Source: Caulobacteraceae bacterium (lineage in GTDB: Bacteria > Pseudomonadota > Alphaproteobacteria > Caulobacterales > Caulobacteraceae). From it: a stretch of 39,784 bases of DNA. Shown here in pieces: positions 13,430 to 35,901 of this stretch (the first letter of the stretch is position 1; every line of letters begins with the position of its first letter). The stretch spans positions 19,382 to 59,165 of the forward strand of contig PLRV01000054.1 in the NCBI GenBank assembly GCA_003164925.1. The letters run 5' to 3'. The notes under the pieces were generated by a model. The model was given only the letters and a program-made list of their open reading frames with translations, had not been told where the DNA came from and made no database searches. Position numbers and translations under genes: made by a program.

Positions 13430-13444
13430 GTTCGCCATGCGGAC
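13430..13444. promoter_or_regulatory. IclR-like operator, site 1
   Basis: GTTCGCCATGCGGAC, an exact match to the core GTNCG-N5-CGGAC. It lies between the divergent thiolase gene (171 bases) and the carboxymuconolactone-decarboxylase-like gene (172 bases). The distance to the latter is unusually long because a ~100-bp palindromic repeat lies in between. Confidence 0.7.
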
Positions 13445-13473
13445 AAGCGCTGCGCCGACGGCGGCGAGCCATG

Positions 13474-13575
13474 CTAGAACAGGTTGCGTTTCCACGGAAT
13501 CGCAGCCTGCTCTAAACCTTTGTTTGGGAGCGCATTTTATCCGAAAACCGGTTCCCACTTTTCGGAACGCGCTCC
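13474..13575. repeat. Double-hairpin intergenic repeat with GANTC site
   Basis: The first hairpin has arms AGAACAGGTTGCG and CGCAGCCTGCTCT with GAATC at 13497-13501. The second has outer arms GAGCGC and GCGCTC and an inner part of the form CCGAAAACCGGTTCCC then ACTTTTCGG. I recognise this as an intergenic repeat type common in alphaproteobacteria. It separates operator site 1 from the gene at 13617. Confidence 0.7.
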
Positions 13576-13616
13576 AAGCGCTTCAAGGCTGCAACCGTCA
13601 GAGAGAAGTCCCAACC

Positions 13617-14186
13617 ATGACTCTTGTCCATCAGCCCAGGATCGCGTCGGTGACATCGGAAGCGATGACCGAGGCGCAAAGATCGGTCGCCGCCGTCGTG
13701 GCGGCCGGACCCCGCGGTGGCGTGCGCGGGCCGTTCGCCGTCCTGCTGCACAGCCCTCAGGCGTTCGACGCCGCTCAGCGCCTCGGCGCCTATTTGCGGT
13801 TCGAAAGCGCGCTGCGGGCGGATCTTCGCGAGCTGGCTGTCCTGGTGACGGCGCGATTCTGGAAGCAGCCCTACGAATGGCGCGCTCATGCGCCCCTGGC
13901 CGAACAAGCGGGAGTCGATCCGCTAGCCATCGACGCCCTGGCGCATGGGCGCGAGCCCGCCACGCTGTCGGCGGATCAGGCTCTGGTCTGGCGATTTTGC
14001 GCGCAGCTTCACGCCAAGACCAAGGTCGATGATGCGGTCTTCGCGGCCGTGCAGGCGTTGATCGGCGAGGCCGGCGTCATCGATCTATGCGTGGTCTGTG
14101 GCTACTACGCCATGCTCGCCATGGTCATCAACGTGGCTCAAAACCCCCCCGGCGACGGCGCGCTTCCCTTCGAGCAGGAGCCCTAG
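13617..14186 (+). CDS. Carboxymuconolactone-decarboxylase/AhpD-like protein
   Basis: About 189 residues from the ATG at 13617; in-frame codons further upstream fall in the palindromic repeat, so I reject them. The all-helical CMD/AhpD-like fold is indicated by GPFAVLLHSPQAFDAAQRLGAYLRFESALRADLRELAVLVTARFWKQPYEWRAHAPLAEQAGV and by LCVVCGYYAMLAMVINV near the C-terminus. There is no CxxC pair, so a peroxidase role like AhpD is unlikely. A decarboxylase or isomerase role on a ring-cleavage product is possible but unproven. It is the first of three genes of this family in the window. The stop TAG falls in the CTAG beginning a 77-bp palindrome. Confidence 0.82.
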   Translation: MTLVHQPRIASVTSEAMTEAQRSVAAVVAAGPRGGVRGPFAVLLHSPQAFDAAQRLGAYLRFESALRADLRELAVLVTARFWKQPYEWRAHAPLAEQAGVDPLAIDALAHGREPATLSADQALVWRFCAQLHAKTKVDDAVFAAVQALIGEAGVIDLCVVCGYYAMLAMVINVAQNPPGDGALPFEQEP

Positions 14187-14259
14187 TGTGGCGATTCAGA
14201 AATTCGCCTGAGGCTTGTGGAGAGCGCGGAGCGAATTTCTGAATCTCAAGCCACGCTAG
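14183..14259. repeat. 77-bp palindromic element, copy A
   Basis: It begins and ends in CTAG. The left arm is CTAGTGTGGC then GATTCAGAAATTCGC; the right arm is GCGAATTTCTGAATC, TCAAG, then CCACGCTAG. It contains GATTC and GAATC. The stop codon of the preceding gene is the TAG of the left CTAG. The element could fold as a terminator-like hairpin or be a small non-autonomous mobile element. Confidence 0.8.
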
Positions 14260-14271
14260 AAATGTATGATT

Positions 14272-14348
14272 CTAGTGTGCTTTTTGGATCTGAAGTTCGC
14301 GCCTCGGTCTACCCAAAGCGCCGGCGAACTTCAGATCCAGCACACTAG
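14272..14348. repeat. 77-bp palindromic element, copy B
   Basis: Same length and same CTAG ends as copy A, 12 bases after it. Its arms are CTAGTGTGC, then GGATCTGAAGTTCGC, and the reverse complement GCGAACTTCAGATCC, then GCACACTAG. The core differs from copy A by several substitutions that occur in both arms and so preserve pairing. Confidence 0.8.
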
Positions 14349-14379
14349 CGCCGCCCCGCGGCGGGCAAACCGCCGGAGG

Positions 14380-14394
14380 GTACGCAGAGCGGAC
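14380..14394. promoter_or_regulatory. IclR-like operator, site 2
   Basis: GTACGCAGAGCGGAC, an exact core match, 119 bases before the ATG of the flavin monooxygenase gene at 14514. Apart from the two 77-bp palindromes, the 14187-14513 gap contains no other feature that I can support. Confidence 0.65.
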
Positions 14395-14513
14395 GGGCGG
14401 CGCCTGTTCCTTGTCATGGAAGGTCCGCAGCGGCGAGATCGGGGAGAACTCTTCAGCACCATGAAGAGCCATTGCCAGCGCCTCGGACGGCGCGAAACGC
14501 GAGCGAACAACCG

Positions 14514-15788
14514 ATGACAATCGCCCTAGAAACGCGCGCGCCCAATGCGCAAGTGGTGCTGCCGCAGCCCGAACCGGGGCTCACGCCTGAGCAGATCATT
14601 CAACGCGCTGTGGATCTGCGCCCCCTCCTGCGCGCCGATCAGGCGGAGACCGAGGAGCGTGGAGCCTACTCCCCGGAAATGCACGAGCGCTTCAAGCAGG
14701 CGGGCTTCTATCGGATTTTGCAGCCGAAGATGTTCGGCGGCTACGAGTTCGACCTTACGGTCTTCTCGAAGGTCATGGTCGAGATCGCCCGGGGGTGTCC
14801 GGGCACGGGCTGGTGCCTGACCCTGGCTTCAGGGCACGTCCTCAATGTCGCGGCGCTCTTTTCGCAACCGGCGCAGGCGAAGATCTTCGGAAGCGATGGG
14901 CATTTCGCCGCGCCGGCGCGCGGCATCCCTCAGGGCGTCGCCAAGCCGGTCGAGGGCGGCTGGCTCATCGACGGCGTCTGGGACTATTGCTCGGGCGTGC
15001 CCTATTCGACCCACGCCCTCGTCAGCGTTCGCATGGAGGGGGGCGCCGACGGCGGGCCGCCCCAGATCGGCGCGGCCATCGTGCCTCGGGCCGACTGGGA
15101 AATGCTCGACAACTGGGGCGATTTCATCGGCATGCGCGCCAGTGGGTCTAACAGCATACGGATCAAAAACGCATTCATCGCGGATGAATTCCTCGCTCGG
15201 CAAAATGTCTTCGACATGAAGATCGGGGATCTGCCGGGCTACAAGGTGCACGGCAATCCGCTCTATGCGGGCCGCATGTTCGGGTTCTTCCAGACCGAGA
15301 TCACTTCGATCATGGTCGGATTGGGATACGCCGCCGTGGACGAGTTCGAGAACATCATCGTGGCCAAGCAGAACTCCCCGGTCCCGGCCGGGCCGAACGC
15401 CAGCCTTGATGACTACCATCGCGCTCATGGCCTGGCGATGGGCCGGCTGGAGGCGGCCGCTCAAGCTTTGGACGGCGGCGCGCGCAGCTACGAAGCCTAT
15501 TGTCGTCGCGGCGTTCAGGATGTCCGGCTCTATACGGAGTCCGACGACATGCTGATCCAGGCGGGATTGCAACAGGCCGCCCGGCTGGCGTTCGAAGCGG
15601 TGGACCTGCTCTATTGCGCGGCGGGAACCAGTATCTCGGCCAAGAACGGCACCCGCATGCAGAGGTATTTCCGCGACGTCTCCATGGCACGCACCAATCC
15701 AGGATTGCAGTACGAACGTTCGGCCGCGCGGATTTCGGTCAACAGCCTCAGCGATCGTGGCGTGATTAAGCGCCCGGCCCGGGCCTGA
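14514..15788 (+). CDS. Group-D flavin-dependent monooxygenase (acyl-CoA dehydrogenase fold), oxygenase component A
   Basis: About 424 residues from the ATG at 14514. It has the acyl-CoA-dehydrogenase fold of two-component flavin monooxygenases such as C2-HpaH and HsaA. GAYSPEMHERFKQAGFYRILQPKMFGGYEFDL is the N-terminal helical domain, ARGCPGTGWCLTLASGH the flavin-site region, and DGVWDYCSGVPYSTH and NWGDFIGMRASGSNSIRI the beta domain. AAGTSISAKNGTRMQRYFRDVSMARTN is the C-terminal type-2 helix bundle. Such enzymes use reduced flavin from a separate reductase to hydroxylate phenols. No catalytic base for acyl-CoA dehydrogenation is apparent. The nearest candidate reductase is encoded at 34209. 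A second, related oxygenase is at 28185. Confidence 0.88.
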   Translation: MTIALETRAPNAQVVLPQPEPGLTPEQIIQRAVDLRPLLRADQAETEERGAYSPEMHERFKQAGFYRILQPKMFGGYEFDLTVFSKVMVEIARGCPGTGWCLTLASGHVLNVAALFSQPAQAKIFGSDGHFAAPARGIPQGVAKPVEGGWLIDGVWDYCSGVPYSTHALVSVRMEGGADGGPPQIGAAIVPRADWEMLDNWGDFIGMRASGSNSIRIKNAFIADEFLARQNVFDMKIGDLPGYKVHGNPLYAGRMFGFFQTEITSIMVGLGYAAVDEFENIIVAKQNSPVPAGPNASLDDYHRAHGLAMGRLEAAAQALDGGARSYEAYCRRGVQDVRLYTESDDMLIQAGLQQAARLAFEAVDLLYCAAGTSISAKNGTRMQRYFRDVSMARTNPGLQYERSAARISVNSLSDRGVIKRPARA

Positions 15789-15790
15789 GC

Positions 15791-15805
15791 GTTCGCAGGG
15801 CGGAC
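15791..15805. promoter_or_regulatory. IclR-like operator, site 3
   Basis: GTTCGCAGGGCGGAC, an exact core match. It begins two bases after the monooxygenase stop and ends 97 bases before the TonB-receptor ATG, so it should control receptor expression separately. Confidence 0.72.
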
Positions 15806-15902
15806 TGGAATCCAATGCGGATTGATGCGCATCGGTCCAGTCGCCACGTTCAATCGATCTAAATCTATCGCTCAGCGATTGAGAAAAAAAGGGGAGGGAC
15901 GA

Positions 15903-18218
15903 ATGGCTATTCATTCAAGGTATCGACGTTCGCTGTTACAGTCGGGCGCGGCGCTAGGATTGCTCAGCGGTCTGTTGATGGCAGGCGGCGCTGCGGCTCA
16001 GAATTCAGCGCCGAAGGCCGACGCGGCGAACGCCCCGGTCACGCAGCTTCAAGAGGTCGTCGTCACGGCCCAGTTCAGAGGCGAAAATCTTCAGAAGACG
16101 CCGCTGGCTATTACCGCAATCAACTCCAAGATGCTCGACGCGCGGGGCCAGGTCAACGTGACCGACATCGCCGCTAACGCGCCGAACATCACCATCACGC
16201 CTGGCGATGCGTCCTTTGGGCCGACGCCGGTTATCAGCATACGCGGCATTGGCGCGCATGATTTCACTTTCGCATCTGAGCCGGGGGTCGGCGTCTATAT
16301 TGACGATGTCTACCAGTCCACCTTGATCGGCTCTGCGATGGATCTCCTGGATCTGGACCGGGTGGAGATCTCGCGAGGACCTCAAGGGACCCTCTCGGGC
16401 AAGAACGCCATCGGCGGCACGATCAAACTCTATTCCAAGCCTGCGAATGGCGCGTCCGGCAATTACATGGACGCTGGATACGGCAGCGATAACCAGTTCG
16501 AACTCAAGGGTGGCGGCGATGTCACGCTGGCGCCCGACAAATTGTTCCTGGCTGGCGCCGCCAGCTATCACAGCGAGGACGGCTATCTAGATCGCCTCGA
16601 CTATGGCTGTCTGAATCCCGGCTCGGGAATCAAGGCCGTCACGACCGCGAGCAACTGCAAGCTGGGCGAAGAAGGCGGCTTTCACCATGCCGCAGGCCGC
16701 CTGAGTCTTCGTTGGCTGCCCGTAAACAACCTGGAAGTCGTTCTTACCGGAGACGGGCAATCCAACCGAGATGAGCCGGTAGCTTCCAGACTGATTGCCG
16801 CGCGAAATATTACGGGTACTGCCGCGACCAATTTCCCGCAGTTCATTACCAGCAGTAAATTCGTAAATTATTCAACATACAATACGCCTGAGGAAAACTG
16901 GACCGTCCCAGCCGTCAATAACGTCGATGCCGGCGGTATTGATGCCAGGGTAAAGTACACGCTCTCTCCAGATACTTCGGTAACATCGATCACCGCGGAT
17001 CGCGACTCCAACATCCGCTTTACGAGCGATGGCGGCGCCGATCCGCTGACGGCTGTGAATGAAGACAACAGGATTTCCAGCAATACGTTTACGCAGGAGC
17101 TCCGATACAACACGAAAATTCAGAATTTGGACCTGACTGCCGGCGGCTATTACCTGAACTTCAGGGGTACGCTCGGCGGCCGGTTTGATCTCGGTTACGG
17201 CCCGCCCGGGCCCCCGATCGGTTATACGGCGGACGACCGAGTGAACGGCGATACCGCAGCCGGCTTTGTTCACGGCGTCTATCATGTCACCGATAAACTC
17301 AATCTCGTGGCCGGCTATCGATATACCGATGATAGCAAAACCTACATTTTCAATAGAACGGCGACGACGGCCAACGGCACTCTGCCAGCTGGCGTTTCGG
17401 GAACGGTCGGTAAATACAACGGCGCCGTGAGCGATTATCGCGCGTCGATCGACTACCAGTGGACGCCGGCGCTAATGACCTACGCGACGTTCTCGACGGG
17501 ATTCCGGGGGGGCGGCATCAATCCCAGGCCGTTCACACCGGCCCAGATTGTTCCGTTCGGGCCAGAGTACCTGAAGAATTATGAGGCCGGCTTCAAGGCC
17601 GAACTGTTTGACCGCCGGCTTCGGCTGAATGTCAGCGCGTTTTACGACACCTATTCCGCCATCCAGATCGTAATAACCAACGGCTTTGGCGGATTTCCGC
17701 TGTCGGCCGTGCCCATCAACGCGGGCGACGCGGATATCGATGGCGTGGAAGCGGAGTTTGAATTTCACCCGATCACGAACCTCCAGATGGACGGGTCCGT
17801 TAGCTATCTGAAGTTTAACTACACCAACCTTTCAGCCGACGCGATCGCCTCGAACGTGACGAAAGGCGATGTGACGCCCTATACCCCCACCGCGAAAGCC
17901 AGCTTGGGCGTGCAGTACAGATTCCCGCTCGAAAGTGCAGGATCGATTACGCCGCGGGTGGACGTAAACTATCAGGGGTCACAGTATACGTCGGCGCAGA
18001 ATGAGCCGACTAATAACATGGCGGGATATACTGTATTGAACGGCCATATAAATTACCGTTCGGAAGACAATATGTGGGGCGTGTCTCTAGAGGTGGATAA
18101 CCTTACCAATCTGTACTATTATACGAACATCGACGATGGCCTTCAGGCGATTGGCACTGTGCTCGCCACGCCAGCCCGGCCCAGGACGTTCTTTGTTCGG
18201 ATGAGCCGGCGTTTCTGA
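15903..18218 (+). CDS. TonB-dependent outer-membrane receptor
   Basis: 771 residues from the ATG at 15903, preceded by the strong ribosome-binding site GGGGAGGGAC. A signal peptide (RRSLLQSGAALGLLSGLLMAGGAAAQ) is followed by the TonB box region LQEVVVTAQFRGENLQKTPLAIT. The plug domain has the motifs ISIRGIGAHDF, GVGVYIDDVYQS and LDLDRVEISRGPQGTLSGKNAIGGTI. The 22-strand barrel ends in a C-terminal phenylalanine (FFVRMSRRF). These receptors import large or scarce substrates across the outer membrane with TonB energy. In Caulobacteraceae and sphingomonads, members next to aromatic or steroid genes are often substrate importers. The gene has its own operator-like site and a strong terminator, which makes it a probable importer for the region-(c) substrate. 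Confidence 0.95.
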   Translation: MAIHSRYRRSLLQSGAALGLLSGLLMAGGAAAQNSAPKADAANAPVTQLQEVVVTAQFRGENLQKTPLAITAINSKMLDARGQVNVTDIAANAPNITITPGDASFGPTPVISIRGIGAHDFTFASEPGVGVYIDDVYQSTLIGSAMDLLDLDRVEISRGPQGTLSGKNAIGGTIKLYSKPANGASGNYMDAGYGSDNQFELKGGGDVTLAPDKLFLAGAASYHSEDGYLDRLDYGCLNPGSGIKAVTTASNCKLGEEGGFHHAAGRLSLRWLPVNNLEVVLTGDGQSNRDEPVASRLIAARNITGTAATNFPQFITSSKFVNYSTYNTPEENWTVPAVNNVDAGGIDARVKYTLSPDTSVTSITADRDSNIRFTSDGGADPLTAVNEDNRISSNTFTQELRYNTKIQNLDLTAGGYYLNFRGTLGGRFDLGYGPPGPPIGYTADDRVNGDTAAGFVHGVYHVTDKLNLVAGYRYTDDSKTYIFNRTATTANGTLPAGVSGTVGKYNGAVSDYRASIDYQWTPALMTYATFSTGFRGGGINPRPFTPAQIVPFGPEYLKNYEAGFKAELFDRRLRLNVSAFYDTYSAIQIVITNGFGGFPLSAVPINAGDADIDGVEAEFEFHPITNLQMDGSVSYLKFNYTNLSADAIASNVTKGDVTPYTPTAKASLGVQYRFPLESAGSITPRVDVNYQGSQYTSAQNEPTNNMAGYTVLNGHINYRSEDNMWGVSLEVDNLTNLYYYTNIDDGLQAIGTVLATPARPRTFFVRMSRRF

Positions 18219-18248
18219 CGCTTCAGGCCGTCACTTTTCAGTCCTTCC

Positions 18249-18280
18249 AAAAGGCGTCCCCAGCAATGGGGGCGCCTTTT
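18249..18280. terminator. Intrinsic terminator, possibly bidirectional
   Basis: Arms AAAAGGCGTCCCC and GGGGGCGCCTTTT around AGCAAT, with one bulge or mismatch, followed by T-rich sequence. It lies 31 bases after the receptor stop and 33 bases after the end of the convergent IclR gene, so it probably ends both transcripts. Confidence 0.85.
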
Positions 18281-18312
18281 CCCTTTATCGGGAAGTTGCG
18301 CTGCGTCTTGCG

Positions 18313-19104
18313 CTATTGAAGGATCGGCAGCACGGGTGGGTCGTTGATATCGAGCCGCTCTTCGATCCGGTTACGGGCCGTCAGCAGATGGGGCGTCAGC
18401 CAGGCGGCGGCTTCCGAATGGGGCATGGCGCTAGCGAGCCAGACGATGTTGATGCAGGCCAAAACCCGGCCTTCAAACCTTATGGGCGTGGCGATGGCGA
18501 TGCTGCTTCCGTCGGCCAGGTCCGGGCAACTGCTGACGCCGTCGCGACGTCCGACCTCGATGAGTTCCGCGATGAAGCTCTGGTCGCCGGCTCTGGCGGC
18601 GGCGGGATCGGGCGATGCCTTCAAGCCCTCGAGGATTTCCATTCTTTCGGCCTCGGGGCAATGGCTCAGATAGGCCCTGCCTAGGGCGCTCTCGAGCATG
18701 GGACGGCGACGACCGATGATGCCCGCTTCAAAAGACAGGGAGCTGATACGATGGGTGGAGTCGCAGATCACCATCGCGTCCCGATCGCGCACCGCCAAAT
18801 CCGAAGGCCACGCGATCTCCACCGTCAGCTGGGTCAGGATCGGGCGCGTCAGCGCCTCGATGGATTTGTCGCCGGCGGCGACCTGGTTCAACCGCCGCAC
18901 TTCGCTGGTCAGGCGAAACCCCGAGGTTGAGCGAGACTGGTACACCCAGCCGCGGTCGATCAGGGTGTCGAGGATGCGGTGGACGGTGGGACGCGGCAGG
19001 TCGAGTTTCTGGCAGATTTGGACGGGCGTGGCCTCAATGACGGTGTTCAGATACTGCAGAACCCGTAGCCCCCGGGCCAGCGAGCGGATTGACGCGTACG
19101 ACAC
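18313..19104 (-). CDS. IclR-family transcriptional regulator 1
   Basis: A 263-residue protein with an N-terminal winged helix (IRSLARGLRVLQYLNTVIEATPVQICQKLDLPRPTVHRILDTLIDRGWVYQ, residues 6-57) and a C-terminal IclR effector domain with LESALGRAYLSHCP and AIATPIRFEGRVLACINIVWLASAM. It resembles the MhpR-like subgroup. It is encoded in the same direction as, and downstream of, the lactonase/hydroxylase/VOC unit, with a GANTC repeat in between. It is one of two candidates for binding the palindrome repeated through region (c). No copy of that palindrome lies just upstream of this gene. Confidence 0.9.
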   Translation of the reverse strand: MSYASIRSLARGLRVLQYLNTVIEATPVQICQKLDLPRPTVHRILDTLIDRGWVYQSRSTSGFRLTSEVRRLNQVAAGDKSIEALTRPILTQLTVEIAWPSDLAVRDRDAMVICDSTHRISSLSFEAGIIGRRRPMLESALGRAYLSHCPEAERMEILEGLKASPDPAAARAGDQSFIAELIEVGRRDGVSSCPDLADGSSIAIATPIRFEGRVLACINIVWLASAMPHSEAAAWLTPHLLTARNRIEERLDINDPPVLPILQ

Positions 19105-19164
19105 GATCTAACCTCCGTCGCCGTCCGAGCATCACCGTGGCGGCGGCGTGATCGGGGCGCTACC

Positions 19165-19233
19165 CTAGAGCACGATGGGTTTAGGCGGAATCGCCTAAAC
19201 GCTGAATCGCGCTCTAGATTCAAGTGTGTAGAG
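19165..19233. repeat. GANTC-bearing intergenic palindromic repeat, copy 2
   Basis: The outer arms are CTAGAGCACGAT and ATCGCGCTCTAG; the inner arms are GTTTAGGCG and CGCCTAAAC around GAAT. GANTC sites start at 19188, 19204 and 19217, spaced exactly as in the copy at 3564. It lies in the gap between the IclR start and the lactonase stop. Confidence 0.82.
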
Positions 19234-19260
19234 CTGGGTTCAGACTTCGAGAGAAGCCAT

Positions 19261-20235
19261 TCAGCTCTGGACAGCACCATAACTCAACTCTGGGCGGCCA
19301 GACAGACCAAGCCCTTGTCCGTGTGGCGGACGTTCGTTCGGGGCCTGGTCGAGATGGCCAGTCGGGGCGGCCCAGTGCGCCAGAGCCGCGCCGGCGACGG
19401 GGGCGGTCAGGCGCGCCAGTCGATCCATCCGCAGCGATCCGATATAGATGGTCTTGAGGTCCGCGCCGCCGAAGGCCACGCTCGATGGGAAGTTGAGCAC
19501 ACGCCCCGATGGATCCTCCAGCAGGCGCTCAGCCCGTCCGTCGGGCGTGATGCGATGCAGGCCGTTGCGGGTTACTTCGGTCACCCACAAGCCGCCTTCG
19601 GCATCGAAGGCGATCCCGTCGACGATGGCGCCCTCGAACAGCGGCGCGGGGCCGTAGGGCTGTGGCGGGCCCAGACCGCCGTCCGCTTCGATCGGCATGC
19701 GCACGACGCGGCCAAGCGCCGATTCAGCCAGATAGGCCCATCCGGCGGCGCGATCGACGCGCATTTCATTGGGAAAGCAAAGGCCGTCCGCCACGATTCG
19801 AGCCTCTTGCCCCTCGAGTCGCAGGACATAGCCGTCCGGAATCGGGCGCTCGATGGCCAAGGATCGCGGTGCAACGCGGGTCGACACCGTGATCCAAAGA
19901 TCGCCCAGGTCGTCAAAGCAAACGAAGTTGACGGCTCCCAACGCCCGCCCGTCGAGTTGGTCGAGCACGACGGTCTCCGCGCCGTCCGGATCCAGCCGAC
20001 GAACCTGGCCCAAGGCGATATCGGCGATCAGCAAAGCGCCGTCCGGCGCCATGGCCAGGCCGTTGGCTACCCCGCCGGCGGCGCCGATCCGAATTTGCGC
20101 GCCGTCTGGATCGATGCGGGTCACGACGGCGCTTTCGTCGGACGTCCAGATCCGGCCCCCGGCCTCGACGAGGACGCACTCGGGACGGCGCAGATCACGC
20201 CCGACGAAGGTGACGTCGTCCAGGCTCAATCGCAA
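19261..20235 (-). CDS. SMP-30/gluconolactonase-family hydrolase
   Basis: A 324-residue six-bladed beta-propeller protein of the SMP-30/LRE family. The blades show repeated VxRIDPDGAQ-like strands. Likely metal ligands are the glutamate in RPECVLVEAGG, the asparagine in FPNEMRVDR and the aspartate in VDGIAFDAEGGLWVTE. Family members hydrolyse lactones. It overlaps the FAD hydroxylase gene upstream by 10 bases, so it should act in the same pathway, perhaps opening a lactone formed after ring oxidation. The substrate is unknown. The C-terminal ~25 residues (GQGLGLSGRPELSYGAVQS) are not recognisable as part of the fold. Confidence 0.85.
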   Translation of the reverse strand: MRLSLDDVTFVGRDLRRPECVLVEAGGRIWTSDESAVVTRIDPDGAQIRIGAAGGVANGLAMAPDGALLIADIALGQVRRLDPDGAETVVLDQLDGRALGAVNFVCFDDLGDLWITVSTRVAPRSLAIERPIPDGYVLRLEGQEARIVADGLCFPNEMRVDRAAGWAYLAESALGRVVRMPIEADGGLGPPQPYGPAPLFEGAIVDGIAFDAEGGLWVTEVTRNGLHRITPDGRAERLLEDPSGRVLNFPSSVAFGGADLKTIYIGSLRMDRLARLTAPVAGAALAHWAAPTGHLDQAPNERPPHGQGLGLSGRPELSYGAVQS

Positions 20236-21716: not shown

Positions 21717-21723
21717 CGCGCGC

Positions 21724-22363: not shown

Positions 22364-22378
22364 GTCCGCATCGAGAAC
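22364..22378. promoter_or_regulatory. IclR-like operator, site 4
   Basis: On the minus strand it reads GTTCTCGATGCGGAC, one mismatch from the core (GTTCT for GTTCG). It lies 115 bases upstream of the VOC gene start, the same distance class as the other sites. Confidence 0.5.
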
Positions 22379-22404
22379 GCTGGACGCAGAAACTGTTCAG
22401 GGCG

Positions 22405-23205
22405 TCATCCGCAGCCCGGCGCCAATCGGCCGTCGGAAGCGAGATCGCCGTCGCCGATCATCGCTGCTTCGATTGAAGCCCGTGCGCGCAGCAGGGCGGG
22501 GGCCAAGCTTTCAACGCCTTCGCGGAACGGGACGGCCTTGGCGATCCAGATGATGCTAAGGCACGCCAGCACGCGCCCGCCGCGGCGAACGGGCGCAGCG
22601 ATCGCGGCGGCGTTCGGGTAGGTTTGTCGGCGCTCGGTGGCGAAACCGTTGAGTCGCGCCGCATCGACAAATTCGTAAAATTCGGGGGTGCAGCGCGCGC
22701 TCGGGTTGACCGGGTCGCCGTGACGCTCAAGGTGTTCCAGGATAGCCGCGGCCTCCGCCGGCGGGCAGAAGGCCAGATAGGCGCGCCCGGCGGCGGTCAA
22801 AAGCATTGAGCGGCGCACGTCGAGCTCGATCTCGATGCAATAGGGATTGAGCGTGTGGGTCGTCTCGCGCTGGACCATGGCGTAGTTTTCGTACGTGCTC
22901 AGCTCGCAGGTCCAGGTCACTTCCTTTTGTAGTTCCAGCAGCGTCGGTTGGGCCGCCCAGATGGCCCAGGCCTGGTCGCTCAAGCCGTCGCTGAGGCCAT
23001 GGACGGCCAGGGTGGGGCGATAGACCTCGTCGCGCCCTTCGGAGACCAGTCCGCACTGATGCAGCGTCTGGAGAATCCGGAAGATCGCCGGCCGCGAAAG
23101 TCCGAAGCGCTTGGTGAGCTCGTTGCGACGCGCGCCGCCGGACATGCTCAGGTATTCCAGGACATCCAGACCTCGGCCCAATGCGCGAATATTGTCGTCG
23201 CCCAT
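22405..23205 (-). CDS. IclR-family transcriptional regulator 2
   Basis: A 266-residue IclR protein. The winged helix is IRALGRGLDVLEYLSMSGGARRNELTKRFGLSRPAIFRILQTLHQCGLV (residues 6-54), and the effector domain includes LLTAAGRAYLAFCPPAEAAAIL and AAIAAPVRRGGRVLACLSIIWIAKAVPF. It is related to regulator 1 (similar GRVLACxxIxWxA segment), and the two may be paralogues. It is divergent from the maleate-isomerase-like gene. The intergenic space holds one full palindrome (23435) and a tandem 82-bp repeat, which favours this protein as the autoregulated master of the local regulon. Confidence 0.9.
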   Translation of the reverse strand: MGDDNIRALGRGLDVLEYLSMSGGARRNELTKRFGLSRPAIFRILQTLHQCGLVSEGRDEVYRPTLAVHGLSDGLSDQAWAIWAAQPTLLELQKEVTWTCELSTYENYAMVQRETTHTLNPYCIEIELDVRRSMLLTAAGRAYLAFCPPAEAAAILEHLERHGDPVNPSARCTPEFYEFVDAARLNGFATERRQTYPNAAAIAAPVRRGGRVLACLSIIWIAKAVPFREGVESLAPALLRARASIEAAMIGDGDLASDGRLAPGCG

Positions 23206-23229
23206 GATTTCCTCCGTTCAGGTTCTTGG

Positions 23230-23386
23230 GTCCTGATCTGGGCGAACAATCGGCCCTGGTCGCTGGACTGTCAAACGCGTCAGACCGCGGCAAGGCCGCG
23301 TTCAGCACGATGTCCTGATCTGAGCGAACATTCGGCCCTGGTCGCGGGAGTGTCAAACGGGCCAAGATGCGGCGAGGGGCCGCGTT
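23230..23386. repeat. Imperfect tandem repeat, 2 copies, 82-bp period
   Basis: Copy 1 spans 23230-23302 and copy 2 spans 23312-23386. Both open with GTCCTGATCTG(G/A)GCGAACA, continue with TCGGCCCTGGTCGC, and then TGTCAAACG, and both end in a GGCCGCGTT-like segment. It is confined to the divergent promoter region of regulator 2 and the isomerase gene. Each copy carries GTCC...GAAC half-sites in the order GTTCGC-x-x-AGATCAGGAC on the minus strand, which may be degenerate binding sites. Confidence 0.85.
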
Positions 23387-23434: not shown

Positions 23435-23449
23435 GTTCGCCAGGCGGAC
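23435..23449. promoter_or_regulatory. IclR-like operator, site 5 (best copy)
   Basis: GTTCGCCAGGCGGAC, the sequence closest to the consensus of all sites. It ends 101 bases before the isomerase ATG and begins 229 bases from the regulator 2 ATG. The remainder of the 23206-23550 gap is the tandem repeat. Confidence 0.75.
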
Positions 23450-24326: not shown

Positions 24327-24341
24327 GTTCGGCGGGCGGAC
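24327..24341. promoter_or_regulatory. IclR-like operator, site 6
   Basis: GTTCGGCGGGCGGAC, an exact core match, 93 bases before the TTG start of the thiolase-like gene. Confidence 0.68.
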
Positions 24342-27412: not shown

Positions 27413-27418
27413 TGGGCC

Positions 27419-27433
27419 GTTCGCGAGGCGGAC
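27419..27433. promoter_or_regulatory. IclR-like operator, site 7
   Basis: GTTCGCGAGGCGGAC, an exact core match, starting 7 bases after the CoA-transferase stop and ending 91 bases before the SRPBCC gene ATG. Confidence 0.72.
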
Positions 27434-27524
27434 GGATGGTGGGGCTGCATTGCCGGCTCCAGATGATCGGCTGAGAAAGACCTTACGACAACGAGCGCCG
27501 GCCGGCGAGCTCAGGGAGATAAAA

Positions 27525-27953: not shown

Positions 27954-27997
27954 TCATTGAACCGATGAAGTCGGCGCCGCCAGTATGGCTCGACGGG

Positions 27998-28030
27998 AAA
28001 AGGGGCGGCGCCTGAGGGCCGTCCCTTTTT
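27998..28030 (+). terminator. Intrinsic terminator after the SRPBCC gene
   Basis: Arms AAAAGGGGCGGC (27998-28009) and GCCGTCCCTTTTT (28018-28030) with a GCCTGAGG-like loop and one mismatch, 44 bases after the stop, ending in a T-run. Confidence 0.78.
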
Positions 28031-28057
28031 CATTTGCCGGCCGAGCCGCGGCGCGGC

Positions 28058-28072
28058 GTTCGCGCATCGGAC
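28058..28072. promoter_or_regulatory. IclR-like operator, site 8
   Basis: GTTCGCGCATCGGAC, an exact core match with a divergent spacer, 112 bases before the start of the second oxygenase gene, which opens a five-gene operon. Confidence 0.65.
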
Positions 28073-28184
28073 CGACCGGCGCGCCTGCCTGTTCGCCGGG
28101 GCTGGGTTCGGACACTGAAGGTCTGCTTCGGCGAAGGCGTGGCCAAGAACCACGTCGACGTTCACCGCATCTATCCGAAAGGGG

Positions 28185-29414: not shown

Positions 29415-29424
29415 GCCAGGCCCA

Positions 29425-30183: not shown

Positions 30184-30908
30184 CCGGACAGCCGCTTTCC
30201 TACGTCGCGCACGGCGTGACTTTCGAGGGGTATTACGCTGCGCCGCCAGGCGCCCGGGGAGCCGGGAGTCTGGGGGGCGTGCTGGTTGTGCCTGAAGCGC
30301 CCGGTCTTGGCGCGCACGTGAAGCGCCGCGTCGAGGCTCTGGCCCAGGCGGGATACGCGGCCCTGGGGGTGGATCTGCACGGCCAGGGCGCCCTGGCGGC
30401 CTCGCCAGATCAGGCCAGGGCTTGGGTCGGCGAGTTGAAGGCCGATCCGGCGCGGCTGATCGCCCGCTTGGACGCGGCGCTCGCCGCTCTGTCCAACCGT
30501 CCGGAAGTGGACGCCGGGCGTCTGGCGGCCGCCGGGTACTGCTTTGGCGGCTGGTGCGCCCTCGAGCTGGCTCGCGCCGGCCGGCCGTTGCGGAGCGTCA
30601 GCGTGTTCCATGGCTCGCTGACCAGCGTGCGCGGGGCCGAGGCGATCGCCGGCTCGGTGCTGGTCTGCACGGGCGACAGCGACCCGTTCGTCCCGATCGA
30701 TCAGGTCCTCGCGTTCCAGGCCGAAATGGGCGCGGCCGGCGTTGACTACGAGATCTGTCTCTATGGCGGCGTGCGCCACGGCTTCACCGACGCCGAGCTG
30801 CGTATGCCCGATCCGGCCTTCGGCTACTCGCCAAGGGGTAACGCCCACAGCTGGGCTTCATTCATGCGCGAGCTGGCCGACGCCGTCGGCGGGCCCGCCG
30901 ACGCCTGA
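30180..30908 (+). CDS. Dienelactone-hydrolase-family protein
   Basis: A 242-residue alpha/beta hydrolase of dienelactone-hydrolase type. It has the nucleophile C121 in AAGYCFGGWCA, the acid D166 in GDSDPFVP and the histidine H198 in GGVRHGFTD, with PEAPGLGAHVKRR giving the oxyanion region near residue 40. Members hydrolyse enol-lactones or related esters. The ATG overlaps the upstream stop. Together with the lactonase at 19261 it suggests that lactones arise in this pathway. Confidence 0.9.
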   Translation: MTGQPLSYVAHGVTFEGYYAAPPGARGAGSLGGVLVVPEAPGLGAHVKRRVEALAQAGYAALGVDLHGQGALAASPDQARAWVGELKADPARLIARLDAALAALSNRPEVDAGRLAAAGYCFGGWCALELARAGRPLRSVSVFHGSLTSVRGAEAIAGSVLVCTGDSDPFVPIDQVLAFQAEMGAAGVDYEICLYGGVRHGFTDAELRMPDPAFGYSPRGNAHSWASFMRELADAVGGPADA

Positions 30909-30924
30909 GCCAGAGGAGAGCAAG

Positions 30925-31773
30925 ATGGAATATGCCGACAAGGTTGTTCTGATCACGGGGGCGGCGACCGGCATTGGACGGATGACGGCGCGGCGTCTCG
31001 GGGCGTTGGGCGCCCGGGTGTTCATCGCCGACCTTTCCGAATCCGGCGCCCAGGCGGCGGCGCAGTCCGTGCCGGGCGGCCGGGCCGTGGGCTTGCGCTG
31101 TGACGTCACCCGCCAGGAGGACGTGGACGCCCTGCGCACGCAGGTCCTGGCCGCCGCCGACCGCCTGGATCTGATCATCAATAACGCCGCAAGGCCGCCG
31201 GTCAGTGGACCGTTCATGAGCGTCGGTCTCGACCAGTGGACCCAGGCGCTCGACGTCAATGTCCTGGGCTATGTGCGCATCATCCAGGCCTTTTTGCCCA
31301 CGCTGCTGGTGCAGGGCTTCGGCCGCATCGTCAACACCGCATCGGCCCTGGCGCTGCTGCCCGATCCCCCCACCCGCTTCATGGGCCCCTATATCGCCAG
31401 CAAAGGCGCGCAACTGGCCCTCTCCTACGGACTGTCGCACACGCTGGAAGGGACGGGGGTTGAGGTGTCGGTGTTCTGTCCGGGCCTGACGGCGACGGCC
31501 GAGCTGGCGGACGGCAAGGTCTCCGGTCTTCCGCCCGGAAGCCCGCCGCCCGAGGAGTTCGCGCGTGGCGTCCCGCAGCGGCGCGGCGTTCCGGCCAGCG
31601 TCGACCATGCGGTCGCCACTCTCCTGGCCGGCCTGGAGCGCGGCGATTTCCTGATCTGCTCGCAGGAAGGCTATCGCGCCGACCTGATCGAATTCGCCAA
31701 GCGGGGCTTGGATCCTCGGACCATCGTCGCCGAAGCCCTGGCCGAGACCGGCGGCGCGGCCAAGACGCGATAG
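30925..31773 (+). CDS. Short-chain dehydrogenase/reductase
   Basis: 282 residues from the ATG at 30925 (GAGGAGAGCAAG precedes it). An earlier in-frame start overlaps the hydrolase gene and is rejected. It is a classical SDR with the cofactor motif TGAATGIG (11-18), D60 in RCDVT, the NNAA motif, and the catalytic triad S140, Y156 and K160 (YIASK). An aspartate after the second strand (FIADLSES) suggests NAD(H) preference. It oxidises an alcohol or reduces a ketone of unknown identity. It sits between the hydrolase gene and a CMD-family gene in the operon. Confidence 0.92.
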   Translation: MEYADKVVLITGAATGIGRMTARRLGALGARVFIADLSESGAQAAAQSVPGGRAVGLRCDVTRQEDVDALRTQVLAAADRLDLIINNAARPPVSGPFMSVGLDQWTQALDVNVLGYVRIIQAFLPTLLVQGFGRIVNTASALALLPDPPTRFMGPYIASKGAQLALSYGLSHTLEGTGVEVSVFCPGLTATAELADGKVSGLPPGSPPPEEFARGVPQRRGVPASVDHAVATLLAGLERGDFLICSQEGYRADLIEFAKRGLDPRTIVAEALAETGGAAKTR

Positions 31774-31779
31774 GCGCGC

Positions 31780-32349
31780 ATGGCCAGAATTCCCTATCTG
31801 ACCCCTGCCGATCTGCCGCCCGGCGGCCCGATCCCCCTGATGAAGGCCAATATCACGCGCGCCGTGGCCAACAGTCCGGGCGCGGCTCGACTCGTGGCTG
31901 GCATGGGGGCCTATCTACGCAACGACAGCCCGCTTGATCCCAAGCTGCGCGAGCTGGCGATCCTGCAAGTCGGCTATACGACCCGGTCGACCTACGAATG
32001 GGCTCACCACGTCGAGATTGGCGTGCGCTTCGGCCTGACCGACGAGGATATCCACGCGGTGGCGCGCGACAGCGAGGGACAGGTCTCGCACCTGGATCCG
32101 CTCGCCAAGGCGGTTCTGGCCGCCGCGCGCGAAATGACCATCGACATGACGCTATCGGACGAGATTTTCGCGACGTTGCGCGCGGGACTGGAGCTGACGG
32201 CTCTGGTTGACCTCCTCGTCGCCATAGGCGAATACAACGGCTTGGTCAGGGTAATGGCGGCCATCGAGATCGATTTGGAGCCGGAATATCTTCCGTGGCT
32301 CGACCGGTTCCCGTTGCCGCAGACGCCGTCGCCCGTGGGCCGTCTCTGA
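31780..32349 (+). CDS. Carboxymuconolactone-decarboxylase-family protein
   Basis: A 189-residue single-domain CMD protein: LRNDSPLDPKLRELAILQVGYTTRSTYEWAHHVEIGVRFGLTDEDIHAVARDS is the signature helix pair, and TALVDLLVAIGEYNGLVRVMAAIEIDLEPEY ends the domain. It resembles the protein encoded at 13617 in length and in the tryptophan/histidine pair (YEWAHH against YEWRAH). It is the last gene of the operon that begins at 28185. Its role is unknown; decarboxylation of a ring-cleavage product is one possibility. Confidence 0.88.
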   Translation: MARIPYLTPADLPPGGPIPLMKANITRAVANSPGAARLVAGMGAYLRNDSPLDPKLRELAILQVGYTTRSTYEWAHHVEIGVRFGLTDEDIHAVARDSEGQVSHLDPLAKAVLAAAREMTIDMTLSDEIFATLRAGLELTALVDLLVAIGEYNGLVRVMAAIEIDLEPEYLPWLDRFPLPQTPSPVGRL

Positions 32350-32352
32350 TCC

Positions 32353-32367
32353 GTCCGCCAGGCGGAC
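32353..32367. promoter_or_regulatory. IclR-like operator, site 9 (perfect palindrome)
   Basis: GTCCGCCAGGCGGAC, a perfect 7-bp inverted repeat around a central A. It begins 4 bases after the CMD stop and ends 97 bases before the FAH gene ATG. Confidence 0.74.
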
Positions 32368-32464
32368 CATGCTCGCCCGACCCGCGCGACGGCTGGGCGC
32401 CGCTCTTAGGGTCGCGCGCTTAGTTGATATCAAGGGCCTTGCGCCTCGGTAGGGAACCAGTCTC

Positions 32465-33319
32465 ATGAAACTTCTCAGCTTCCAGATCGGCGGCGAAACC
32501 AGCTTCGGCCTGGTCAAAGGCGACAGAGTCGTGGATCTCAAGCGCCGCCTGGGCGGCCGGTTCGCGGATCTGCTCGCCGTGCTGCAGGCGGGCGCTCTGA
32601 AGGAGCTTGAACCCTACGCGGCTGGAGAAACGGACTACGCGCTTTCCGACATTACATTCCTGCCGGTAATCCCCAACCCAGGGAAGATTATCTGCATCGG
32701 CGTCAACTATGAGACCCACCGCACCGAGATCGGCCGCGATCCCAGCAAGAAGCCGATGGTCTTTGGCCGCTTCAATGACACTCAGGTCGGCCACCTGCAG
32801 CCGCTGCTGGCCCCGCCCGAGTCGATCACCTTCGACTACGAAGGCGAGATCGCCGTCATCATCGGCAAGGCGGGGCGGCGGATCAGCCAGGCTGACTCTT
32901 GGAGCCACATCGCCGGCTACGCGCCCTACAACGACGCCACCATCCGCGAGTGGCAGGGCCACACACCGCAATGGACTCCGGGCAAGAACTTTTACCATAC
33001 CGGCGGCTTTGGCCCCTGGATGGCCACGCGCGGCGAGATCGCCGATAACGCCGAACTGCACCTTTCTACCCGGGTCAACGGCATGGAAGTGCAGCGCGCC
33101 ACCAGCCACGAGATGATCTTCCCCATTCCGGAAATCATTGAATACTGCTCGACCTTCATTCCGTTGAACCCGGGGGACGTCATCGTCACGGGCACGCCTG
33201 GCGGCGTGGGCAATCGCCGCGAACCCAAGCTGTTCATCAAAGACGGCGACGTAGTCGAAGTTGAGATCACAGAGGTGGGGACCCTCGTAAATCCGGTGAA
33301 AGCCGAAATTCCGGCGTAA
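32465..33319 (+). CDS. FAH-family hydrolase/isomerase 1
   Basis: A 284-residue fumarylacetoacetate-hydrolase-fold protein. The metal ligands are the ExE in SITFDYEGEIAVIIGK and the aspartate in APYNDATIREWQ. IICIGVNYETHRTE and GDVIVTGTPGGVGNRREP are the other core motifs. Family members hydrolyse acylpyruvates, decarboxylate oxaloacetate analogues or isomerise ring-cleavage products. It is the first gene of a two-gene unit with the NADP oxidoreductase-like gene. A second, only moderately similar FAH gene lies at 35002. Confidence 0.92.
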   Translation: MKLLSFQIGGETSFGLVKGDRVVDLKRRLGGRFADLLAVLQAGALKELEPYAAGETDYALSDITFLPVIPNPGKIICIGVNYETHRTEIGRDPSKKPMVFGRFNDTQVGHLQPLLAPPESITFDYEGEIAVIIGKAGRRISQADSWSHIAGYAPYNDATIREWQGHTPQWTPGKNFYHTGGFGPWMATRGEIADNAELHLSTRVNGMEVQRATSHEMIFPIPEIIEYCSTFIPLNPGDVIVTGTPGGVGNRREPKLFIKDGDVVEVEITEVGTLVNPVKAEIPA

Positions 33320-33360
33320 ACGACGCGCTTGGTCATTCCATCAGAGTTAAGGAAGTTGTC

Positions 33361-33996
33361 ATGAAAGTTGGTTTTGTCGGCGCCGGACGAATGGCGCAGA
33401 TGCTCACGCCGCATCTCGTCGCGGCTGGGCACCAGGTGATCCTGACCAATTCTCGCGGGCCTGAAAGCCTGAAGGATCTGGTCGCCACGCTGGGGACGGG
33501 TGTTTCGGCCGCCAATGTCGCGCAGATGGTCGAGGCCGCCGATATCGTTGTTCTGGCCACGCCTTGGGGCAAAACCAAGGAAGCGGTGGCGCAGGCGCCC
33601 GTATGGGACGGCCGGATCGTCATCGATCCCACCAACAACCGCACCAAGCCAGGCCCCGATGGACTGATCGATATCGGCGGGCGTGGATCAAGCGAAGTGG
33701 TCGCCGAGCTGGTGCCCGGAGCGCAGTTGGTCAAAACGCTGAACTACGAGCCGATCCCGATCTATGGCCAAGGTTTGAGCAGCACTGAGCCCAAGGCCCT
33801 GTTCCTGGCCGGCGACAACGCGGCCGCCAAGGCCAAGGTTAGCGCGCTGATCGCTTCGCTCGGGGCCGAGCCCATCGATGTCGGCAGTCTCGCCGTCGGC
33901 GATCAACTTCTGAAGGGCGGCGGCGCCCTGGCGATGAAGATGCGGCTCCTTAAGCCCGATGAGGCGCGCGAACTGCTGTCAGCCTCCACGACCTGA
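33361..33996 (+). CDS. NPD-like NADP oxidoreductase (NADPH-dependent F420-reductase-type fold)
   Basis: A 211-residue Rossmann protein. KVGFVGAGRMAQMLTPHLVAAGHQV is the dinucleotide motif and NSRGPE supports NADP binding. DIVVLATPW, VIDPTNNRT and VKTLNYEPIPIYG are family signatures (coenzyme F420-dependent NADP oxidoreductase/NAD-binding 2 group). Alphaproteobacteria generally lack F420, so a different substrate is likely. It lies 41 bases downstream of the FAH gene and has the strong hairpin at 34056 after it. Confidence 0.85.
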   Translation: MKVGFVGAGRMAQMLTPHLVAAGHQVILTNSRGPESLKDLVATLGTGVSAANVAQMVEAADIVVLATPWGKTKEAVAQAPVWDGRIVIDPTNNRTKPGPDGLIDIGGRGSSEVVAELVPGAQLVKTLNYEPIPIYGQGLSSTEPKALFLAGDNAAAKAKVSALIASLGAEPIDVGSLAVGDQLLKGGGALAMKMRLLKPDEARELLSASTT

Positions 33997-34055
33997 GGCC
34001 TGTCGGCTCCAACCCGGGCGGCCGCGAGCCCGTTGAACGTTTCATAGCCAAGCGC

Positions 34056-34086
34056 CGCCCCCGCGATGGACCCCATCGCGGGGGCG
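34056..34086 (+). terminator. Strong hairpin, probable terminator
   Basis: Perfect 14-bp arms CGCCCCCGCGATGG (34056-34069) and CCATCGCGGGGGCG (34073-34086) with a 3-base loop, 59 bases after the stop. The following sequence (TTGTCGCG) has only a weak T-run, so its strength as a terminator is uncertain. Confidence 0.7.
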
Positions 34087-34106
34087 TTGTCGCGTCTGGC
34101 CTGGGC

Positions 34107-34121
34107 GTACGCCCCACGGAC
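34107..34121. promoter_or_regulatory. IclR-like operator, site 10
   Basis: GTACGCCCCACGGAC, an exact core match, 87 bases before the FMN-reductase ATG. Confidence 0.66.
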
Positions 34122-34208
34122 TGATCGCGAGCGCCGGTTGTTGCGCTCCTTCCGCCGCGCGACCTTTGCGCGGATCAACCAGATTGAATTCGTCGAAAAG
34201 GATGGGAC

Positions 34209-34868
34209 ATGAAACAGCCGGCCCGCGAACAGGGCGACGTGGCGCAAGCCATCGGGCGGAGCGCGGAGGATACGCGGCCGTTAATTGTCGGGATCGGCGG
34301 CGGGGCGCGCAACGGCTCGAGCACCGAGCGTGCGATGGCGTTGACCCTGGCGGCGGTGGAAGCCCTGGGCGCGCGCACGGAATTGTTCGGTGGCCAGCAG
34401 CTTTATCAACTGCCGCTCTACGACAATTCCCATAGCGTCCGCACGCCCGAGGAGGAACGCCTTCTCGCCGCCGTGCGGCGCGCCGACGGCTTCGTTGTGG
34501 GCACCCCGGCCTATCACGGCGGTGTGGCTGGCGTGGTCAAGAACGCGCTGGACCTGCTGGAAGACACCGCCCGCGATGCACGCCCCTATCTGGAAGGCCG
34601 GGCCGTGGGTCTGATCGTCACCGCCTATGGATGGCAGGCGACGGGCGTGACCTTGACCTCAATGCGCTCGATCATCCACGCGCTGCGCGGCTGGCCAACG
34701 CCCGTGGCGCTGACACTCAACGCCACGGGGGGGCTCTTTGACGAGACCGGTCGCTTCAAGGATGCGCGCTGCGACGAGACGGTTAAGCTGATGGCCGGCC
34801 AGATCATGCATTTCGCCGCGGCGGGACGCCCGGTCGAGCGGGCGACGGCGCTGGAGAACGCCGGGTAA
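34209..34868 (+). CDS. NAD(P)H-dependent FMN reductase (flavodoxin-like fold)
   Basis: A 219-residue protein with a ~25-residue variable N-terminus, then LIVGIGGGARNGSSTERAMALTLAAVEALG (FMN phosphate loop), DGFVVGTPAYHGGVAGVVKNALDLLE (isoalloxazine region) and AVGLIVTAYGWQ. It resembles SsuE/ChrR-type reductases. It could supply reduced FMN to the two group-D oxygenases encoded at 14514 and 28185, which have no other obvious reductase in the window. This pairing is inference. It is a single-gene unit with operator site 10 upstream. Confidence 0.88.
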   Translation: MKQPAREQGDVAQAIGRSAEDTRPLIVGIGGGARNGSSTERAMALTLAAVEALGARTELFGGQQLYQLPLYDNSHSVRTPEEERLLAAVRRADGFVVGTPAYHGGVAGVVKNALDLLEDTARDARPYLEGRAVGLIVTAYGWQATGVTLTSMRSIIHALRGWPTPVALTLNATGGLFDETGRFKDARCDETVKLMAGQIMHFAAAGRPVERATALENAG

Positions 34869-35001
34869 GGCGGCGATGGACGTCTACAAGCCGCCATCGC
34901 CGCTTCGTCGCCGTCCACGGCGACCGCCGCCGCGATCGCCGTGAGAAGGTCCTCCCCGTGTGACGATGGTCAGGGAGCGACCCGTTCGCAGATCCGCCCG
35001 C

Positions 35002-35856
35002 CTAAGGCTCGTTGACGAAGCGGTTCTCGATGTGGCCCAGGCCCGTGATCGTCACCCGCACGACGTCGCCTTCCTTCATGTAGCGGTCGGCGGCTATGCC
35101 GACGCCGGCGGGGGTGCCCGTGGCCAGGACATCGCCCGGCTCCAGGGTCATGACCTGGCTGAGGTAGGCGATCTGATCGTAGATGTCGTAGATCATGTCG
35201 CCCGTGGACGTCCGCTGGCGCTCCTCGCCGTTCAGCTCGAGCGTCATGGTCAGGTCGTGCGGATCTTCGATCTCATCATCGGTGGTCAGCCAGGGACCGA
35301 TCGGGCCGTGGGTGTCGAAGGATTTGCCCAGGGTGAAGGTGGGCGTGCGGAACTGCCAGTCGCGCGCCGTCACGTCGTTGCACACAAGGTAGCCTGCGAT
35401 AACCGAGCGCGCGTTTTCGCGAGAGACGTGGCGGCAGCGCTTGCCGATGACCACGCCCATTTCGGCCTCGTAGTCGACCCTGTCCGGCGCGGCCTTAGGC
35501 ACATGCACGTCCGAGTAGGGGCCGTTGATGCAGGTGACCTGTTTGTTGAACCACAACTGACTGGTCGGGAGGGGAACGCCGGCTGCCGCGGCTTCGTCCG
35601 CGTGGGCCTGGTAGTTCATACCGATCGCCAGGTATTTGCGCGGGTCGTCGATCGGCGCTTCCAGGGTCACCTCAGCGAGGGGATAGGCCGGGGATTGCGC
35701 GGCCTCAAGGGCGGGGCGAACCTCGTCCAAGCGCTCTAACAGCAGCCGCATCGAATCGCCGACGCCGGGAATGAGCCCGTCCAGGTCCACGACCGTTTCG
35801 CCGACGACCTTGCCCAAGCGTGTGCGCCCGGCCGCTGTAAATCTCGCCAATTTCAT
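35002..35856 (-). CDS. FAH-family hydrolase/isomerase 2
   Basis: A 284-residue FAH-fold protein on the minus strand. Metal ligands lie in DYEAEMGVVIGK (ExE) and LVCNDVTARDWQ (D). KYLAIGMNYQAHADEAA and TLEPGDVLATGTPAGVGIAADR are the core motifs, closest to the acylpyruvate hydrolase/2-hydroxyhepta-2,4-diene-1,7-dioate isomerase group. It is encoded divergently from the acetoacetate-decarboxylase-like gene. A candidate operator lies 30 bases upstream, so repression of this gene would be by overlap rather than at the spacing seen elsewhere. Confidence 0.92.
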   Translation of the reverse strand: MKLARFTAAGRTRLGKVVGETVVDLDGLIPGVGDSMRLLLERLDEVRPALEAAQSPAYPLAEVTLEAPIDDPRKYLAIGMNYQAHADEAAAAGVPLPTSQLWFNKQVTCINGPYSDVHVPKAAPDRVDYEAEMGVVIGKRCRHVSRENARSVIAGYLVCNDVTARDWQFRTPTFTLGKSFDTHGPIGPWLTTDDEIEDPHDLTMTLELNGEERQRTSTGDMIYDIYDQIAYLSQVMTLEPGDVLATGTPAGVGIAADRYMKEGDVVRVTITGLGHIENRFVNEP

Positions 35857-35886
35857 TCACTCTATCCTTCTCACGGGGGACGCCGC

Positions 35887-35901
35887 GTTCGCTGAGCTGA
35901 C
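35887..35901. promoter_or_regulatory. IclR-like operator, site 11
   Basis: GTTCGCTGAGCTGAC, one mismatch in the core (CTGAC for CGGAC), in the divergent region between the FAH 2 gene (30 bases) and the acetoacetate-decarboxylase-like gene. Confidence 0.42.

Follow-up and report, generated by a model that had tools for sequence, protein, structure and literature searches.

Operator-like palindromes in an aromatic catabolic cluster

The DNA analysed here is a 39,784-nt stretch of the genome of a Caulobacteraceae bacterium (contig PLRV01000054.1 of assembly GCA_003164925.1), referred to below as the window, whose numbering is used for all positions. It holds genes predicted to act in aromatic catabolism, many of them preceded by a short palindrome, GTNCG-N5-CGGAC, and genes for two IclR-family proteins, IclR1 (22405..23205, minus strand) and IclR2 (18313..19104, minus strand). 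Both proteins exceed the Pfam cut-offs for HTH_IclR and IclR_C and are encoded beside their putative targets. An exact search gave 13 strand matches at 11 distinct places. These comprise the nine exact coordinates listed in a preliminary description of the DNA and two exact sites missed there, at 9769 and 19317; the two one-mismatch copies of that list, at 22364 and 35887, also exist.

Ten sites read toward a gene that starts 87–119 bp downstream. On the plus strand, exact sites precede the genes for the flavin monooxygenase MoxA (14380..14394; 119 bp), a TonB receptor (15791..15805; 97 bp, with the start at 15903), Amd (23435..23449; 101 bp, in the region shared with the divergent IclR1 gene), a thiolase-like protein (24327..24341; 93 bp), a polyketide-cyclase-like protein (27419..27433; 91 bp), the HsaA-like operon (28058..28072; 112 bp), an FAA hydrolase (32353..32367, a perfect palindrome; 97 bp) and an FMN reductase (34107..34121; 87 bp). 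On the minus strand, an exact site (9769..9783) lies 89 bp before the start, at 9679, of a gene for an AraC-type regulator, and a one-mismatch site (22364..22378) lies 115 bp before the glyoxalase-MhpA-SGL genes. The nine distances reported earlier for 14380 to 34107 (119, 97, 115, 101, 93, 91, 112, 97 and 87 bp) are correct. Three further sites stand farther from a start codon. An exact plus-strand site at 13430..13444 is 172 bp from CMD1 and 170 bp from the divergent PcaF gene; the one-mismatch site at 35887..35901 (plus strand), the weakest member, is 190 bp from an acetoacetate-decarboxylase-like gene; and an exact, perfect palindrome at 19317..19331 lies in the 3′ end of an SMP-30-like gene, 212 bp before the IclR2 gene. 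By the gene list the other 10 of the 11 exact places are intergenic, in keeping with the placement first described.

For consensus and spacing counts we used 12 window sites, retaining 35887 and omitting 19317, the orientation of which is undefined. Within this set 35887 is the sole site to deviate from CGGAC in the right arm, and the left arm is GT(T/A/C)CG with a single GTTCT (22364). The palindrome extends to a 6-N3-6 form, GTTCGC-N3-GCGGAC.

Motif counts and conservation of the sites

The exact motif is concentrated in the window. A shuffled-sequence count, proposed as a check in the preliminary description, gave a mean of 0.82 matches and a maximum of 4 over 100 shuffles of the window, against the 13 observed. 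The genome (3,435,177 bases in 100 contigs) holds 68 matches at 57 distinct places, 11 in the window and 46 in the other 3.40 Mb, an enrichment of about 20-fold (0.54 places expected, Poisson P 1.7e-11). By a simple codon-usage gene caller trained on the window, which makes the counts rough, 38 of the 46 outside places lie inside called genes, compared with one of the 11 window places (Fisher 9e-6). The stretches around all 46 were read: seven of the eight intergenic places (including C74:39266) face no called gene start within 300 bp, and the eighth precedes a distant operon described below. Genome totals are ordinary within the family, many of 99 other family genomes equalling or exceeding this one in matches to GTHCGC-N3-GCGGAC; clustering alone is special. 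These genome-wide counts used patterns that approximate a weight-matrix scan. The motif-carrying loci that served as outside background in the matrix scan were picked for having matches, so no rate was drawn from them.

Orthologues of most right-hand genes were found in clusters of Agrobacterium vitis by tblastn of plasmids, with protein identities of 80% (thiolase-like), 74% (FAA hydrolase), 73% (CoA transferase), 71% (HsaA), 68% (Amd), 62% (MoxA) and 49% (each of IclR1 and IclR2). A profile search of genome contigs with an Amd alignment gave ten loci, in metagenome-assembled genomes of Acetobacteraceae, Azospirillaceae and Sphingomonadales, two strains of A. vitis, Rhizobium, Agrobacterium, Xanthobacter and two Novosphingobium; together with L058, which brings the A. 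vitis strains to three, these form the eleven relatives' loci. The A. vitis, Novosphingobium, Azospirillaceae and Acetobacteraceae loci share with the window orthologous enzymes (47–80% to A. vitis), both IclR paralogues and the operator positions. Gene-facing sites 71–124 bp upstream were found before Amd (11 of 11 loci), HsaA (9/9), MoxA (9/9) and the glyoxalase gene (all four testable loci), and before the F420-type gene in four of ten loci, all rhizobial. Sites in relatives were accepted if CGGAC was exact, at least three of the five left-arm letters agreed and the gene lay 30–260 bp away. The 31 sites used for counting omit the A. vitis loci L060, L063 and L070, the F420-type site of L069, and sites facing IclR2, major facilitator superfamily (MFS) and CMD1 genes. 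A matrix built from relatives' sites alone places only listed sites (nine places) among its first ten window matches.

Not every window site is shared. The thiolase-like and cyclase-like genes of relatives show one weak gene-facing match each, among 11 and 11 loci, and the FAA hydrolase gene in seven relatives has no site facing it, with four weak reversed ones. The Amd-thiolase-OB-CoA transferase-cyclase genes have one convincing site in relatives and three here. The thiolase-like, cyclase-like and FAA hydrolase genes each have a good site here, and the simplest reading is that operators were probably gained within an operon that is undivided elsewhere. There are more operators in the window than in relatives, in which one operon holds some of these genes.

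Outside its own genome, IclR1 is rare, matching, under strict limits, in a single genome among 200 of the family and in one among 385 of the class. Under such limits the HsaA-like protein matched in none of 299 other order genomes and the AraC protein in none of 398, both sets evidently lacking the same-family genome G033 discussed below. A single-sequence search of genome contigs with IclR1 gave no match, and none was obtained from the PDB with the IclR1 alignment (E up to 1e-10). Searches limited to open-licence PMC papers showed no description of this cluster among the papers listed.

A putative IclR-family activator

Seven of the 12 window sites (14380, 15791, 22364, 24327, 27419, 34107 and 35887) are followed by TTG exactly 16 bp after CGGAC, against a mean of 0.14 at other offsets; beyond the site and this −35-like element the flanks share little. 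The same spacing occurs at 20 of the 31 relatives' sites (other offsets mean 0.62), with five more at 15 bp. At the −10 position implied by a 17-bp spacer, A and T rise to 24 and 20 of 43 sites. With the site ending 16 bp before the TTG, a transcription start about 7 bp past the −10 element would centre the site near −59, the geometry of a class I activator.

The core, GTYCRY-N3-RYGRAC, fits the IclR group 1 consensus GKTYCRYW3-4RYGRAMC given in a passage of PMC8222616. Departures from that consensus are C0 and G16, the outer bases, a middle rich in G+C, and A at position 3. The same source lists PcaR of Corynebacterium glutamicum with GTTCGC-N3-GCGAAC and CatR with GTACGCAGAGCGTAC inside, and a group GTNCG-N5-6-CGNAC is named in part of PMC13273656. 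The PcaR operator is likewise a 6-N3-6 palindrome from aromatic catabolism, one base from the window's GTTCGC-N3-GCGGAC. The window operator is, however, asymmetric, with a right arm of GCGGAC, and neither IclR protein reaches the cut-off of 284.75 of the PcaR/PcaU/PobR model TIGR02431 (IclR1 70.5, IclR2 90.6). The best NCBIfam matches of both are PRK09834 models, which we take to be MhpR-like, at scores below cut-off (IclR1 169.9 of 299, IclR2 207 of 269). MhpR, the IclR-family regulator of Escherichia coli associated with 3-(3-hydroxyphenyl)propionate, is an activator with its site near −58. The MhpR operator shown in PMC8222616, GGTGCACCTGGTGCACA, is unlike that of the window.

The repeated site is very probably bound by one regulatory protein that switches on the breakdown of an aromatic compound. 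We estimate a probability of roughly 0.65 that a transcriptional activator of the IclR family, most probably IclR1, uses the sites as its operators. An IclR dimer would bind GT(T/A)C(G/A)C-N3-GCGGAC, whose CGGAC arm hardly varies and points toward the gene; at many promoters this arm would end 16 bp before a TTG −35 element, with a weak −10 element 17 bp after the hexamer. Holding a pathway compound, the protein near −59 would recruit RNA polymerase in class I style. Operators would stand before eleven to thirteen units, taking in the receptor, monooxygenases, upper-pathway operons, the AraC gene and probably an MFS-Rieske operon on another contig. Passages of PMC8222616 put IclR regulons generally at one or two adjacent operons, with regulogs of up to 55 gene groups reported. 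The putative regulon of the window, whose promoters resemble class I and whose operators have probably increased in number, appears larger than that. It is ordinary in kind and well supported in sequence. The preliminary description had assigned a regulon of eight or more units to one of the two IclR proteins. A putative IclR-type operator, used by an activator at ten or more promoters, is supported by the group 1 fit, the −35 distance in about two-thirds of sites and conservation beside the IclR genes; as to which IclR protein binds it, we can name only a favoured candidate. For an aromatic catabolic cluster found in several alphaproteobacterial orders, this provides an operator, a promoter architecture and a regulon that can be tested.

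Several observations weigh against assigning the sites to an IclR1 activator. Five of the 12 window sites (9769, 13430, 23435, 28058 and 32353), and also 19317, lack TTG at +16, in either direction at 13430. In the ranking by the relatives' matrix, unlisted places come ahead of 24327, 35887 and 28058, which are only 14th, 20th and 24th. Sites that share a cluster do not count as independent; taken as a class, one-mismatch matches in the window come close to the chance level (36 against 24.9 expected); and six matches to the composite of site, N16 and TTG, the number found here, also occur in 2 of the 99 other family genomes, in one of which (G026) they are spread over five contigs. PMC8222616 places the centres of typical IclR sites between −20 and −80 relative to the start codon, nearer than here. 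Lastly, a partly related cluster in the same-family genome G033 (contig 11, L028/L029) has IclR relatives and no exact site.

In that G033 cluster, MoxA and each of the two IclR genes are preceded by repeats resembling AATCGATT. We considered these as a diverged operator and left them unexplained; perhaps they are another regulator's site. A weak GGTCACAGCGCGGAC 121 bp before the G033 FAA hydrolase gene, without TTG at +16, was not counted.

IclR1 is favoured over IclR2 as the binder, though not proven, on two grounds. First, the IclR1 gene is divergent from Amd here and in the relatives holding it, and the shared region has a site in 11 of 11 loci, whereas the site before IclR2 is missing in 3 of 10. 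Second, the left arm shifts from mostly GTACAC in relatives to mostly GTTCGC in the window (T3 and G5 in 9 and 11 of 12 window sites, compared with 5 and 7 of the 22 unique sites in relatives; Fisher 0.005 and 0.001). This shift accompanies a change in the IclR1 recognition helix, SRPAIFRIL here and SRPTIYRLL or SRPTVYRIL in relatives, and not in that of IclR2, which remains PRPTVHRIL (PRPTIHRIL in one relative). The link between helix and motif, however, comes from one lineage, and IclR2 is as co-conserved as IclR1, points that also count against the choice of IclR1. In a tree the two proteins fall into two supported clades (100/100 and 99/96), one window protein in each.

That IclR2 rather than IclR1 binds the operators as activator, with another role for IclR1, is a tentative alternative that we think unlikely. 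It draws on the presence of IclR2 beside IclR1 in every locus not broken by a contig end, on a helix as nearly invariant as the CGGAC arm, and on reversed sites 150–194 bp upstream of the IclR2 gene in 7 of 10 relatives, with the palindrome at 212 bp here; the missing sites and the motif shift just described argue against it. Less likely again is an asymmetric operator read by an IclR1–IclR2 heterodimer, in which IclR2 would contact the invariant CGGAC arm and IclR1 the variable one, which shifted in the single lineage with an altered IclR1 helix. We know of no natural IclR heterodimer. In PMC8222616 the site given for PcaR of Pseudomonas putida is itself somewhat asymmetric, so that asymmetry does not require two proteins, which counts against this arrangement. 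Two co-conserved paralogues on an asymmetric operator nevertheless turn IclR dimerisation into a testable question.

The sites could also be operators of an IclR repressor that blocks transcription until an inducer releases it, in line with the statement in part of PMC13273656 that IclR proteins of aromatic catabolism often repress. We regard this as improbable: at many promoters 16 bp separate the end of the site from the −35-like element downstream, which is left uncovered, and both the −35 and −10 elements are weak, as would be expected of activator-dependent promoters. An origin of the sites by chance, as copies of a dispersed repeat or as RNA hairpins is scarcely credible. The DNA is rich in G+C and the arms of many copies could pair, but 13 matches stand against 0.82 expected, and placement kept across orders already contradicts such readings; repeat and hairpin were rejected on this conservation and the unlike flanks.

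Reach of the proposed regulon and the lower pathway

The AraC-type regulator (8765..9679, minus strand; HTH_18) was itself weighed as the binder of the sites, its gene lying in the cluster with a site of its own upstream. We rejected it as highly implausible: the eleven relatives' stretches carrying sites (flanks of at most 10–15 kb, some ended by contig ends) gave no AraC match, G033 has an AraC protein 76% identical yet no exact site, and a different, direct repeat suits AraC better. This repeat occurs as TGCAGAA-N14-TGCAGG (8703..8729, minus strand) before the operon starting at 8571 and as TGCAAAA-N15-TGCAGG (11993..12020, minus strand) before the maleylacetate reductase-dioxygenase operon starting at 11736, neither operon having an exact or one-mismatch IclR-type site upstream. 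TGCARAA-N13-16-TGCAGG has three matches in the genome, these two and one inside a gene on contig C95; as the same sequences supplied the pattern, the count tests specificity only.

A hydroxyquinol module on plasmid pSCLO_6 of Sphingobium cloacae resembles this part of the window in its AraC protein (45%), aldehyde dehydrogenase, maleylacetate reductase, dioxygenase and thiolase, and in an AraC-type direct repeat before the homologue of the first gene. With a looser repeat pattern, a further match appears within the IclR gene of the plasmid, and G033 yields none. The plasmid differs in having no exact operator among the best-scoring places and an IclR protein only 28–31% identical. The window joins a hydroxyquinol module (5437–13259), like that of pSCLO_6, to an upper-pathway module (13430–34868) like that of A. 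vitis; the stretches searched in A. vitis and the other site-bearing relatives gave no AraC, dioxygenase or maleylacetate reductase match. Probably AraC drives the hydroxyquinol operons as the likely second tier of a cascade, under the IclR-type site before its own gene, and seems to have been drawn into the regulon. The lack of TTG at +16 at 9769 weakens this cascade.

The regulon probably also extends to another contig. Exact matches to the composite GTNCR-N5-CGGAC-N16-TTG number six across the whole genome. Five fall in the window; the sixth, at C74:95257-95290, lies 135–168 bp upstream of an MFS-like gene, with a Rieske-like gene next in line (L040, G000:C74:92000-98000). Named by similarity only, the first product is 38% identical to the annotated MFS transporter of the A. 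vitis cluster and the second shares 48% identity with a protein annotated as Rieske in the hydroxyquinol operon of S. cloacae. None of 30 window frames scanned with Pfam is an MFS protein, and the motif alone led to this transporter operon. In relatives an MFS gene is divergent from HsaA and is faced by a site of its own. TA occupies the −10 position (17-bp spacer) at six of six such sites inspected, and +16 carries CTG or ATG, not TTG; MFS homology was seen in five of the six loci. We rejected the proposal that the sites mark the limits of a single pathway: the lower operons lack the site and have the AraC-type repeat, the AraC gene has a site, and the MFS-Rieske operon has a complete one.

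Smaller features accompany individual sites. A dispersed repeat (13490..13577, limits approximate, no strand assigned; 17 genome matches including itself) lies in the CMD1 leader between site 13430 and CMD1; without its ~80–90 bp the distance would be ~80–94 bp. Upstream of IclR1, a tandem duplication (23230..23377, no strand assigned; 82-bp spacing, 83% identical) lengthens the distance from IclR1 to its site. Between CMD1 and MoxA, at 14187–14350, two imperfect hairpins with like ends are seen by eye, and were not reported by a repeat search at a length of at least 20 bp. Before the decarboxylase-like gene, 35950–36000 contains TTGACTAATTCGTACGGAATTGAC, possibly a different operator.

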